Source of the DNA: an uncultured Flavobacteriaceae bacterium
GTDB taxonomy: Bacteria; Bacteroidota; Bacteroidia; Flavobacteriales; Flavobacteriaceae
Assembly: GCA_947503105.1 (NCBI GenBank)
Contig: CANNCM010000001.1
Location: 186,001-250,000 of the forward strand
DNA: 64,000 bases
Direction: 5' to 3'
The position numbers were made by a program, and so were the translations under genes. Positions 18,429 to 22,972 of this stretch are shown here, one piece after another. Position 1 is the first letter of the stretch, and each line of letters opens with the position of its first letter. The notes beneath the pieces are model-generated. The model saw nothing but the letters and a program-made list of their open reading frames with translations, made no database searches and was not told where the DNA came from.

Positions 18429-19778
18429 ATGAACTTTTATAAAACTACTGTATTCTCAATTTTTATATCTTTTTTTGGGTTGTTATTGAGTTGTGAAAAT
18501 GAACTTGCTGGCAACACCTATTCTGACACTGATGGAGACGGAATATATGATGCTCTTGATAACTGTCCTACTGTTGCCAATCCCAATCAAGACGATAGCG
18601 ATGGCGATGGCATAGGAGATCTTTGTGATGAAGTATCGTTCACATCTTCGCCTTGTATCAATGGTTTTGCAGGAGTTTACCCTTGTAATGGCTACGATTT
18701 AGTGGGCTACTTATCATTACAAGGCTTAAGTATTAACCCTGGCGGTTCTATTTCTGGTAATGATTCTTGGGGATGGACCGACCCTGACGATGGTAAAGAA
18801 TATGCCCTGGTTGGTTTATCTTCTCACACTGCTTTTGTTGATATGAGTGACCCCGATAATTTAAAACTCATAGGCATTTTGCCAACTGCTACTGTAAATA
18901 GCAGCTGGCGCGACATAAAAGTGTATCAAAATCATGCGTTTATTGTTAGTGAAGCAAACAGCCATGGGATGCAAGTTTTCGATTTGACACGACTAAGAGA
19001 TGTTGAAAACACCCCTGTAGAGTTTGATGCTGATACCCATTTTACAGAATTTGGTAGCGCTCATAATATTGTTATTAATGAAGAGTCTGGCTATGCCTAT
19101 GTTGTTGGCACTAACAGAAATGGTCCATATAACGGAGGTCCATTATTTATCAATATTCAAAATCCAACAGCTCCTATTTTCGAAGGAGGTTTTGCTAATG
19201 GCGGCTATTCTCATGATGCTCAAGTTGTGACCTATAATGGCCCAGATACAGACTATTCGGGTAAAGAAATTTTGATTGGTAGTAATGAAGACGAAGTTGT
19301 TATTGTAGATGTTAGTGATAAAATGAATCCTGTAATAATTTCAACCATTGGATACAGCAATATTCAATATACACACCAAGGTTGGTTTACAGAAGATTTA
19401 CGCTATTTTATTGTTGGTGATGAACTTGACGAACAAAATATTGGTACCAATACACGCACCCTTATTTTTGATTTTAATGACTTAGATAGTCCTACTTTAA
19501 GCTTTGAATATATTGCCCAAAACACATCTATAGATCACAACGGATATACTGTTGGCGACCGTTATTTCTTGGCGAGCTATAGAGCAGGAATGCGAGAAAT
19601 TGACATTAGCAACATAGGAAATCAATCCATGGAAGAGGTTGGATTTTTTGATACATATCCTAGCAATGACAATGCAGCTTTTAATGGCGTATGGAATGTT
19701 TATCCTTACTTTGAAAGCAGAAATATAGTCATCAGCGATATCGAAAAAGGGTTGTTTATTGTTAAAAAAAGTGAGTAG
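18429..19778 (+). CDS. LVIVD-repeat lipoprotein with thrombospondin type 3 repeats (choice-of-anchor B type)
   Basis: Secreted lipoprotein of 449 residues: signal peptide ending LLLSCENE with the lipobox Cys at about 22. Next come calcium-binding type 3 thrombospondin repeats ([15 protein letters not shown] and [13 protein letters not shown], about 34-68). The remainder is a propeller-like domain of LVIVD/choice-of-anchor B type: [54 protein letters not shown] and [10 protein letters not shown]. Repeated histidines (GSAHNI, YSHDAQV, YTHQGW, SIDHNGY) occur once per blade and could face one site, possibly for metal. First gene of a four-gene operon with the MbnP/MbnH-like pair. Biochemical role unknown. 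Confidence 0.85.
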
Positions 19779-19789
19779 AATTCAAAATA

Positions 19790-21139
19790 ATGAATAGTAT
19801 ACAAAACATATCATACCGTTGTTTTGTTTTTATAGCCCTAACGTTAAACCTAGGCTGTGAATCCTCCGACAGTGTTTTACCAACAGAAACTCAATCCGTA
19901 GAAATTGAACAAATTTCAACAATCGGTGGCACCAAAAATGAAAGTGCACAATCGGTTATTAGAACTCCAGATGGCGGTTATGCTGTTTTTGGTTATACCC
20001 AAAGTATAGATGGTGATATCTCTAATAAAAATAATATCTCCTATGATTATTGGTTGCTGAAATTTGATGCCACAGGAGAAGAGCAATGGCAAAAGGTATA
20101 TGGCGGTTCGGACGATGATCGTGGGCAAGATATCATCACAACTAATGATGGCGGTTATGCGCTTTTAGGAAGCAGTCAAAGTAATGATGACGATGTTTCA
20201 AACAACGCAGGTAGCAATGATTTTTGGGTAGTAAAACTGAATGCTTCTGGAACAGTTATTTGGGAAAAATCGTTTGGTTATGCTGGTGCAGATAGTGCTT
20301 TTTCTATTATTCAAACACAAGACAATGGGTTTTTATTATCGGGTGTGCTTGATGTTTCTGCCTCAAATGGCGCTGGCAACAATAGACTAAGAATGCAACG
20401 CCATGCCGGAGGTGATTATTGGGTGGTCAAATTAGATGCTGCAGGCGAACTGCAATGGAGCCGCTATTTTGGTGGAACATTTACAGATACCGCCAATGAT
20501 GCTGTACAAACTACAGACGGAAATTTCCTAATTATCGGTTCTTCTGATAGCGAGGATGTAGACATCAATAACAACAAAGGAACCTATGATTTTTGGATTG
20601 TTAAACTCAATAGTGCTGGCACATTAGTTTGGGAAAAATCGTTTGGTGGCAGCGAAATTGATGAAGCAAGAGCCATTGTATCAACTGCGGATGGTAACTA
20701 TTTGATTGTTGGAGATTCAAGAAGTAATGATAGGGATGTGAACACTAATAATGGCGCTGCAGATATTTGGATGATAAAAATAAATTCCAATGGTGAATTG
20801 CTGTGGGAAAAACCCTTTGGAGGCAGCAGTTTCGATGGTGTTAAAGCCATTTACAAAACACAAAATAATGAATTTCTAGTCGCTGGAAATTCAAGAAGCT
20901 CTGATGGTAATTTAAACCAAAATAATGGCCAAAATGACGCATGGATTTTTAAAATTAATGCACAAGGAAACTTGAAATGGCAGGCCACTGTTGGTGGTAG
21001 CAATGTAGATTTGTTGATGGGTGTAACACAACTTGAAAATGGAACCATTATTGCAGTTGGTAACACCAATAGTTCAGATCTTGATATTTCTGAAAATAAA
21101 GGATTTTCAGATGTTTTAATTATTAAAGCAAAAGAATGA
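19790..21139 (+). CDS. Lipoprotein with seven propeller-type repeats, function unknown
   Basis: 449 residues; signal peptide with lipobox near LNLGCESS (Cys about 24). The mature protein is seven tandem repeats of about 50-65 residues, each with the pattern GG(S/T)-x-D, an I(I/V)xTxDGGY-like strand, a GxSxSxDxD turn with Asn and Asp, then DxWxxKL and GxxxWEKxFGG. Seven repeats suggest a closed seven-bladed beta-propeller. Repeat 3 has an extra stretch (NNRLRMQRHAGGD) before its DYWVVKL strand. The Asp/Asn turns look suited to calcium. The gene starts 11 nt after the LVIVD gene, and its end overlaps the MbnP-like gene (ATGA). I know no assigned function; an outer-surface partner of the MbnP/MbnH pair is inferred from context only. 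Confidence 0.8.
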   Translation: MNSIQNISYRCFVFIALTLNLGCESSDSVLPTETQSVEIEQISTIGGTKNESAQSVIRTPDGGYAVFGYTQSIDGDISNKNNISYDYWLLKFDATGEEQWQKVYGGSDDDRGQDIITTNDGGYALLGSSQSNDDDVSNNAGSNDFWVVKLNASGTVIWEKSFGYAGADSAFSIIQTQDNGFLLSGVLDVSASNGAGNNRLRMQRHAGGDYWVVKLDAAGELQWSRYFGGTFTDTANDAVQTTDGNFLIIGSSDSEDVDINNNKGTYDFWIVKLNSAGTLVWEKSFGGSEIDEARAIVSTADGNYLIVGDSRSNDRDVNTNNGAADIWMIKINSNGELLWEKPFGGSSFDGVKAIYKTQNNEFLVAGNSRSSDGNLNQNNGQNDAWIFKINAQGNLKWQATVGGSNVDLLMGVTQLENGTIIAVGNTNSSDLDISENKGFSDVLIIKAKE

Positions 21140-21906
21140 AATTTAATCTAATTTTTTTAGCGCTAGCCGTTATGTTTGTTGGCTGTGAAAAAGACAATGA
21201 TGATGATATTAGCGCCATTTCAACTGTAAATTTTAAGTTTACACACAAATGGAATGAAACGGAAGTTTTAAACACAAATTTTAATACCCTTCAATTTACA
21301 AATGCTTTTGGAAATGAGCTGACTATAGAACGCTTGCGCTATTTGATTTCTAAAATAAAGTTAACCAAAAATACAGGAGAAGTCATCACAATAAATGAAT
21401 ACACTTTGGTAGATTTAGAAGATATAAATTCATTGAGTTTCACCACAAATCAAGCTGTAGCATTGGGCCATTATTCTAATATTTCTTTTGTATTTGGATT
21501 TACGAACGAGGACAATACCGATGGCACATACACCGATTTAAATTCTGCATCATGGAACGTTCCTGCGCTGCTGGGGGGTGGCTATCACTATATGCAATTG
21601 GACGGAAAATACATCAACAGTTCCAATATTGAAACGGGATACAATTATCATGCGATTCGTGCTGCAGACAATCCAGGTCCAAATCCAAGCTTTCCACAAG
21701 ATACTTTTTTTGAAGTTAATTTAGGAGAAATACACCTCAATGGAACTACTCAAATCACCATCGCAATGGACATTGCACAATGGTTTAAAGAACCCAACTT
21801 ATGGGATTTGAATCAATACGATCAAATGTTGATGCCCAATAGTACAGCTCAAATTCTGATGTATCAAAATGGTCAAAATGTTTTTAATTTAGTTTCTGTT
21901 GAATAA
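21136..21906 (+). CDS. MbnP-like copper-binding family lipoprotein
   Basis: 256 residues with a lipoprotein signal (LAVMFVGCEKD, Cys about 17) and an acidic DNDDD linker. The body matches the MbnP-like domain: VNFKFTHKWN, NELTIERLRYLISKIKL, DLEDINSLSF, ISFVFGFTNED, the core block around SASWNVPALLGGGYHYMQLDGKY, and EVNLGEIHLNG. In methanotrophs MbnP binds copper through a kynurenine made from a tryptophan by its diheme partner MbnH. Tryptophans here are at 39, 140, 216 and 223, and histidines at 37, 112, 151, 172 and 200, so a His/oxidised-Trp copper site is possible. The diheme gene overlaps its end by 8 nt. Family membership is likely; copper binding in this organism is inferred. Confidence 0.82.
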   Translation: MKFNLIFLALAVMFVGCEKDNDDDISAISTVNFKFTHKWNETEVLNTNFNTLQFTNAFGNELTIERLRYLISKIKLTKNTGEVITINEYTLVDLEDINSLSFTTNQAVALGHYSNISFVFGFTNEDNTDGTYTDLNSASWNVPALLGGGYHYMQLDGKYINSSNIETGYNYHAIRAADNPGPNPSFPQDTFFEVNLGEIHLNGTTQITIAMDIAQWFKEPNLWDLNQYDQMLMPNSTAQILMYQNGQNVFNLVSVE

Positions 21907-22972
21907 AATTTTTAAATATAGCTTAGTCCTTTTAATTGCTTGTTTTGCATGCTCAGAAGATGACACAAACAACACCAATAGATATGTTCCTAAACCAGTT
22001 AATTTAGATATTCCAGAGGTTTTTGAAAATCGTATTCTGCCAGCTGTAATTCCAGCAAACAACCCCCTTACAGAAGAAGGAATAGCCCTTGGAAAAAAAT
22101 TATTTTTTGATAAAAAATTATCCGCCAATAATTCACAATCTTGTGCCACGTGCCACGCCCCTCAAAAAGCATTTACAAATAACCTTCAGTTTAGTATTGG
22201 AATCGATCAAATAGAAGGCACTCGAAACAGCATGCCCCTGTTTAATTTGGCATGGAATTATGATGATAAATTTTTCTGGGATGGCCGAGAACTTAGTCTA
22301 GAACGTCAGGTTTTTGACCCGATTACAAATCCTATCGAAATGCACAATACACTGGATAATGTAGTGCACTATTTGCAACAAGATCCAAACTACCCAACCC
22401 TATTCGAACACGCTTTTGGCACTTCAACAATAGATTCTGTGCTAGTGAGCAAAGCAATCGCACAATTTGAACGCACCATTATCTCTGCAAATTCAAAATT
22501 TGATCGATACCTCTTGGGTGAAGCTACTCTTACTCCACAAGAGCAAGAAGGTTTCAATGTTTTTATGGATGAAAACCGTGGAGACTGTTTTCATTGTCAT
22601 GGCAGCGAAAATAACCCGCTTTGGACAGACAATAAATTTCACAACAATGGCCTCGATGCCAACCCTACAGACTTAGGGCTTTCAATTGCTACTGGCGACC
22701 CAAATGATAATGGCAAATTTAGATCTCCGTCTCTAAGAAATCTTGCATTTACAGCACCCTACATGCACGATGGACGATTTGCAACATTAGAAGAGGTTAT
22801 CAATCACTACAGCGAAGGGCTACAAAACTCCCCAACAATTGATCCATTGATGAAAAAAGTAGCACAAGGCGGAGTACAGCTTAGTACTGAAGATAAAGAA
22901 AATTTAAAGCAATTTTTACTGACACTTTCCGACTTCGAATTCATCAACAATCCACAATACGCTCACCCATAA
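21899..22972 (+). CDS. MbnH-like diheme cytochrome c peroxidase-family protein
   Basis: 357 residues from a TTG start that overlaps the previous gene by 8 nt; the signal peptide is of lipoprotein type (LLIACFACSEDD). Two c-type heme motifs are present: CATCH (82-86) and CFHCH (230-234). Family blocks include GIALGKKLFFDKKLS, SCATCHAPQKAFT, NLAWNYDDKFFWDGR, GNxKFRSPSLRN-like sequence (GKFRSPSLRNLA) and TAPYMHDGRFATLEEV, where Met289 is a possible axial ligand of the second heme. Such proteins are either H2O2-reducing peroxidases or MauG/MbnH-type enzymes that oxidise residues of a partner protein. The translationally coupled MbnP-like gene favours the second. Periplasmic and lipid-anchored by its signal. 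Confidence 0.88.
   Translation: MNKIFKYSLVLLIACFACSEDDTNNTNRYVPKPVNLDIPEVFENRILPAVIPANNPLTEEGIALGKKLFFDKKLSANNSQSCATCHAPQKAFTNNLQFSIGIDQIEGTRNSMPLFNLAWNYDDKFFWDGRELSLERQVFDPITNPIEMHNTLDNVVHYLQQDPNYPTLFEHAFGTSTIDSVLVSKAIAQFERTIISANSKFDRYLLGEATLTPQEQEGFNVFMDENRGDCFHCHGSENNPLWTDNKFHNNGLDANPTDLGLSIATGDPNDNGKFRSPSLRNLAFTAPYMHDGRFATLEEVINHYSEGLQNSPTIDPLMKKVAQGGVQLSTEDKENLKQFLLTLSDFEFINNPQYAHP

Follow-up and report, generated by a model that had tools for sequence, protein, structure and literature searches.

A putative MbnP/MbnH-type copper pair encoded behind two propeller lipoprotein genes in an uncultured Flavobacteriaceae bacterium

We analysed a stretch of 64,000 nucleotides (nt) from an uncultured Flavobacteriaceae bacterium (hereafter the window), in which four plus-strand genes, here called A, B, C and D, stand in direct succession. 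We propose that C and D form a copper pair of the MbnP/MbnH type that was added behind an older pair of propeller genes, A and B, and we put the probability of this reading at about 0.5; for the copper pair taken by itself the odds are likewise about one half. The four genes are as follows.

18429-19778, plus strand: gene A, 449 amino acids (aa), a lipoprotein with TSP_3 calcium repeats and a choice-of-anchor B propeller.
19790-21139, plus strand: gene B, 449 aa, starting 11 nt after A, a repeat beta-propeller lipoprotein (ASST / SBBP / delta-60 like).
21136-21906, plus strand: gene C, 256 aa, sharing an ATGA overlap with B, an MbnP-fold lipoprotein of an insert-bearing subfamily.
21899-22972, plus strand: gene D, 357 aa, with a TTG start and an 8 nt overlap with C, a di-heme MbnH/MauG-like lipoprotein.

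Coordinates and spacings agree with those of the original prediction, an earlier note on this DNA that had described a four-gene run with the same gap and overlaps. Close packing is common among relatives, the A-B and B-C gaps lying within 30 nt in 93/108 and 100/108 loci, and from this layout the four genes are probably co-transcribed. At E <= 0.001 the genome, 31 contigs totalling 2.16 Mb, holds one MbnP gene and one choice-of-anchor B gene, both at this locus.

C falls inside the MbnP family by sequence as well as by fold, as had been predicted. It matches Pfam PF20243 (MbnP) with 101.6 bits (cut-off 27), and its structural model (predicted local distance difference test, pLDDT, 83.6) has the solved MbnP 7L6G as its best match (Z 16.1, root-mean-square deviation 3.4 over 210 aligned residues; Foldseek E 7.3e-07), the next entry reaching a Z of only 4.8. 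A phmmer search with C alone returned no MbnP structure; such a structure was found with the profile of the canonical family and by the fold search. Neither CorA nor MopE had an entry among the 50 matches listed for C in the fold comparisons, which excludes nothing. Using hhalign, we found that an alignment of the insert-bearing subfamily (window-type, 40 rows) matches 12 canonical Bacteroidota MbnPs with E 1.8e-34. Trp140 of C corresponds in this comparison to the first Trp of the canonical WxW motif and Val142 to the second, so that one of the two Trp is kept. Bridging relatives reading SWNWPxxLGGGYH join the window-type motif to the canonical one, and the sequence of 7L6G at this place is MAWNWQAG. 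A multiple alignment that set WxW against A144 and L146, as if the motif were wholly lost, was rejected as an artefact on the strength of the profile-profile alignment and the bridging relatives. The positions of C that matter here are listed below; counts refer to 96 C rows, all linked to A-B and de-duplicated by identical last 150 residues, among which close relatives remain, and to 59 rows from outside the subfamily.

21553..21555, plus strand: Trp140, aligned to the first WxW Trp (hhalign, bridging relatives).
21562..21573, plus strand: P143-L146, an insert of 4 residues between the motif and GGGYH that marks the subfamily; P143 in 96/96.
21586..21588, plus strand: His151, found in 96/96 subfamily rows, whereas 53/59 outside rows carry Ile, Lys or Arg.
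21649..21651, plus strand: His172, 96/96 in the subfamily and 59/59 outside; likely copper ligand, judged by conservation.
21802..21804, plus strand: Trp223, found in 96/96 subfamily rows, whereas 48/59 outside rows carry Ile, Val or Leu; candidate alternative oxidation target.
21832..21834, plus strand: Met233, 96/96 in the subfamily; candidate copper ligand, its register to the canonical loop being uncertain.

Other residues of C are kept nearly as well (Trp39 in 91, Trp216 in 90, Met153 in 87 and His37 in 79 of the 96 rows), and the four Trp residues named in the original prediction, 39, 140, 216 and 223, all exist. The Trp140 column itself holds Trp in 74 rows and Phe in 22. Sorted by motif state, 63 rows read WxV, 21 FxV and 11 WxW, 95 in all; the 96th, L165, fits no pattern. 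The second motif Trp is mostly Val in the window's subfamily. An initial search pattern for WxW had scored insert-bearing motifs as lacking it, and the states given here come from a later recount. Exchange of Trp140 for another residue takes 6 changes on the tree of D, and for FxV at least 3 are forced by well supported branches. D has two CxxCH motifs in 20/21 FxV cases, the remaining D (L050) being clipped by the end of the locus. Position 140 is the only column of C in which FxV and WxV rows differ by over 60%. Manesis and colleagues reportedly found in 2021 that the first WxW Trp becomes kynurenine and that a His and a Met lie near the copper. The proposal that D makes kynurenine on C in the same way gains from the register of Trp140 and loses from the Phe-bearing relatives, the mostly missing second Trp and the insert; as originally put, with kynurenine made by MbnH and binding copper, it cannot fully account for this clade.

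D carries the heme motifs C82-x-x-C85-H86 and C230-x-x-C233-H234 and belongs to the superfamily of PF03150 (CCP_MauG), which it matches with 202.8 bits (cut-off 25.6). Its closest solved chain is 6E1C (E 1.6e-55, residues 36-357), which we take to be the MbnH of Methylosinus, in line with the predicted di-heme MbnH-like protein. Both CxxCH motifs, W127 and Y304 are present in 94/94 window-type D rows and also kept in the canonical partners (76 rows); Y304 presumably corresponds to the Tyr heme-ligand position of MauG. W242 is found in 94/94 window-type rows and replaced by Phe in 67/76 canonical partners, and W119 is found in 90/94, with a gap in 75/76 canonical partners. Two columns of D separate FxV from WxV loci by more than 60%, namely position 151 and position 126 beside the conserved W127, the latter being Phe in 52/63 WxV and 4/21 FxV cases. 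At almost every locus surveyed in the phylum, MbnP has an MbnH-like gene next to it. What surprised us most is that an intact, slightly rebuilt oxidase is retained where its partner has in some cases given up the motif Trp.

A is a member of the choice-of-anchor B family (TIGR04312, 538.7 bits; cut-off 100), with thrombospondin type 3 calcium repeats at residues 33-54 and a propeller at 75-447. It had been described as an LVIVD propeller with calcium-binding repeats; repeats and propeller are there, and TIGR04312 takes the place of LVIVD, whose match lies under its cut-off. Seven residues, W114, W160, H212, H262, H316, H370 and W422, recur at intervals of 46-54 residues, a single one in each blade; they coincide with the predicted start of a strand or adjoin it, W114 lying inside its strand (model pLDDT 87.8). 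They are invariant in 37/37 aligned rows; of 153 rows, with gaps scored as misses, 136, 142, 143, 143, 152, 152 and 152 retain them, nearly all of the shortfall being gaps. They are kept at loci with and without MbnP. By its pattern of conservation this His4/Trp3 ring might form a metal site in the mouth of the channel. The model of A matches many propellers, the best Foldseek row being the Sphingobium metallo-phosphotriesterase 5HRM (2.9e-11); kinship with 5HRM is not significant by sequence profile (E 0.068), and many unrelated propellers score similarly. We also considered A as an SBP56-like protein by sequence and rejected this, since A has no SBP56 match in Pfam and the genome has none either. 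Relatives of gene A are frequently duplicated in tandem (L052, L061, L067, L068, L071 and L089), and one genome, G156, has nine matches. B matches ASST with 29.5 bits (cut-off 24.2), its LipL53/SBBP and delta-60 matches staying under their cut-offs, and its His205, Trp158, Trp211 and Trp269 are found in 122/122 rows.

The order A-B-C-D recurs in 43/44 loci chosen by similarity to C, L075 having C and D only, and the arrangement is therefore not due to chance. In a broader survey PF20243 matches were found in 99/199 genomes of the family sample and in 78/296 genomes of the phylum, 77 of them above the cut-off. We examined 100/110 places with wide flanks; the others were the window's own place, two fragments belonging to a single genome and seven canonical-scoring places. 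Both A and B stand upstream in 65/100 places and do not in 35. All 59/59 window-type places have A, B and D, a count that includes L165, grouped by context, and 6/40 canonical WxW places lie behind A-B. One place is left, L144, which lacks WxW by pattern but scores as a canonical MbnP (154 vs 43 bits). At L205, one of the six places where A-B precede a canonical MbnP, no adjoining MbnH was detected, and the partner is possibly broken or missing. L075 and L119 encode MbnPs without A-B that share the insert and GYHYM; their first motif Trp is Met or Phe and the second is kept.

Phylogenetic trees of C and D were built from 114 rows, including every third window-type row; L205 is absent because it has no D. 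The window-type pairs form one side of a branch with a Shimodaira-Hasegawa-like approximate likelihood ratio support of 98 in the D tree and 97 in the C tree. Five canonical A-B-linked pairs fall among free-standing pairs, and one free-standing row, L213, falls inside the canonical A-B-linked group. In quick trees of 53 rows a single clade of A-B-linked pairs was rejected (p 1.2e-13 for D, 1.4e-5 for C). Two separate MbnP/MbnH lineages thus stand behind A-B, and a single accident probably does not explain the link; a preferred place of insertion or transfer of the whole locus may also account for the double arrival.

The N-termini of A, B, C and D each show a signal peptide and a lipobox Cys, assigned by eye (C22, C23, C17 and C18). 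In the window the lipid Cys is followed by acidic residues in C (CEKDNDDD) and D (CSEDD). At least 2 acidic residues follow it in 70/96 rows of C, 58/108 of B, 37/96 of D and 36/140 of A, where rows without a recognised lipobox were scored as misses (a lipobox was recognised in 81/96 C rows). Such residues resemble surface-export signals of Bacteroidota described in the available part of PMC5080379. Surface exposure is therefore probable, and best supported for C.

Taken together, these features suggest the following course. D would take up peroxide and oxidise a Trp on C, the partner encoded by the overlapping gene, and in the window's C this residue would most likely be Trp140. The oxidation would create or tune a copper site to which His172 and, probably, either His151 or Met233 also belong, and C would then hold copper, probably at the cell surface. 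A is a plausible partner or recipient: it might, perhaps with B, receive or use this copper, with the metal at its His4/Trp3 ring; we consider this hand-over much less probable than the copper pair.

A number of observations weigh against the copper pair and its link to the propellers. C has no match to the MbnP equivalog model TIGR04052 at E <= 0.1 (cut-off 140 bits); a canonical Bacteroidota MbnP (L077) also stays under this cut-off, with 62.3 bits. D matches TIGR04039 (MbnH) over positions 1-335 of 336 and reaches 267.9 bits, below the cut-off of 362.85. The Met two places before the first motif Trp, near-invariant in the 12 canonical MbnPs, is Ala here, and Phe replaces Trp140 in 21/95 relatives whose di-heme partner persists, so that kynurenine at this site cannot be essential in all relatives. 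The residues that resemble an export signal are less frequent in D and A than in C. For a related pair of methanotrophs, the available text of PMC3912023 reports that deletion of the di-heme gene raised the growth rate, and the di-heme enzyme is therefore not always required. Finally, we selected 20 genomes for a choice-of-anchor B match and no MbnP match, and in 18/20 of them B adjoins A without MbnP or its partner; A-B therefore do not need C-D. None of the 20 A stretches contains an MbnP match, thiL is found in 19/20 and sufA in 18/20, and one of them (L235) has a weak di-heme match of 88 bits on the opposite strand. A tree of B was built from 58 rows; all 18 MbnP-less rows form one side of a branch with support 99 and so may represent a single evolutionary case. 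This tree is less tidy than those of C and D: three changes are needed for the six canonical-linked rows, which lie, together with four window-type rows, on the MbnP-less side.

The erosion of the motif can be read in other ways. D might have shifted to another conserved Trp of C, with Trp223 as first choice or else Trp39 or Trp216, after which the motif would have eroded from WxW through WxV to FxV. The strong conservation of these three Trp, at positions where outside rows mostly have other residues, fits such a shift, as do the series of motif states with its six changes, the D retained in FxV loci, the W242 and W119 untypical of canonical partners, and the columns that separate FxV from WxV loci, of which D has two and C none besides 140. 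Yet Trp140 is retained in most members, the window included, a conserved Trp may be merely structural, and the differing columns may reflect kinship alone; we think a shift of target unlikely. We are equally reserved about a simpler arrangement, in which D is an ordinary di-heme peroxidase or electron-transfer protein and C binds copper simply through His and Met, without modification of any Trp. The FxV members without a target Trp would suit it, and D also matches classical cytochrome c peroxidases; against this stand the near-universal company of MbnP and an MbnH-like gene, the best NCBIfam and PDB matches of D, which are MbnH-type, and its invariant Y304.

The part of the propellers is likewise debatable. 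C-D might merely have been inserted behind A-B and inherited in place, the propellers having nothing to do with MbnP/MbnH. A-B do remain in the slot between thiL and suf without C-D in one clade of genomes, and with the thiL and suf neighbourhood conserved a shared position may be plain inheritance. This account, possible though doubtful in our eyes, has to face the second, canonical MbnP/MbnH lineage that also stands behind A-B, and the window type, which occurs without A-B in 0/59 places of the family sample, L075 and L119 being relatives from outside. The suggestion that the propellers are partners of the pair hence survives in part: recurrence in 43/44 loci and in two lineages speaks against chance neighbours, and the A-B pairs without MbnP show that they are partial, not obligate, members of the MbnP/MbnH system. 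An assembly line for a copper enzyme at the cell surface strikes us as quite improbable; in it A would be a metalloenzyme with the His4/Trp3 ring in its propeller, loaded with copper by C and perhaps Trp-oxidised by D, and D would in this clade have left the WxW target for another Trp on C or A. We thus retain the copper pair added behind A-B as our preferred reading.

The pair itself is of a known kind. The available part of PMC3621798 reported in 2013 that MbnP/MbnH is conserved far beyond methanobactin producers, and adds that the MbnP sequence shows no marked similarity to MopE or CorA. Like the pair of methanobactin producers, the genes of the window are adjacent and encode an MbnP fold and a di-heme partner, with the motif Trp and conserved His; unlike it, they lie below or outside the NCBI equivalog models, have lost the second Trp, carry the 4-residue insert and encode lipoproteins behind propeller genes. 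No methanobactin operon was in view to the author of the original prediction, and no search aimed at one was made. MopE/SACCP and CorA/CorB of methanotrophs also combine a surface copper protein and a kynurenine site with a gene beside that of a di-heme cytochrome c peroxidase, according to the available text of PMC3912023. For a His/Trp copper protein whose gene adjoins those of a MauG and a copper chaperone, the nearest printed precedent is the mtoX-SCO1/senC-mauG operon. As far as the available part of PMC5739008 goes, this operon encodes the copper-dependent methanethiol oxidase SBP56, a His/Trp-conserved protein, next to a MauG-type di-heme protein and a copper protein. It differs in that A is outside SBP56 by Pfam and that the copper protein here is MbnP rather than SCO1; the genome has two SCO1/SenC genes above the cut-off, neither inside the window. 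The insert-bearing subfamily with its eroded motif and propeller partners was not met in the open literature, which did not cover the primary papers of 2019 and 2021; the MbnP paper of 2021 is said to contain a neighbourhood analysis that possibly mentions such loci. Nor did we find a paper on choice-of-anchor B in the open literature, or a use of the term metallo-mystery among the listed papers on metallo-mystery or LVIVD.

MbnP/MbnH pairs are widespread. In the clade of this locus, loss of the supposed target Trp has happened on more than one occasion while D stayed intact, so that natural relatives can test the need for kynurenine at that site. Our data also name a recurring partner pair, propeller lipoproteins of which A has a conserved residue pattern resembling a metal site.

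Canonical MbnP/MbnH pairs mostly sit elsewhere, as seen at 60 loci with other flanks (L076-L135). A protein of about 125 aa is encoded upstream of canonical Bacteroidota pairs in 25/60 of these loci and one of about 328 aa, mostly downstream, in 23/60; tested representatives of the two families had no Pfam or NCBIfam match. At L099, L101 and L121 a second MbnH-like gene directly follows MbnP-MbnH and is closer to D than the first is, and L127 has two MbnP-MbnH pairs in a row.

The A-D genes are flanked upstream by thiL on the opposite strand and downstream of D by suf genes, names that we assigned from sequence by judgement, without a family search. Terminator-like sites number 7 (3.4 expected), and the search for them found none between D and the next gene. 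Promoters of the sigma-70 type number 20 (19.4 expected), and TANNTTTG occurs 106 times in the window (93 expected). One copy of TANNTTTG ends 33 bases upstream of the ATG of the next gene (23078), and the genes downstream may therefore have a promoter of their own.

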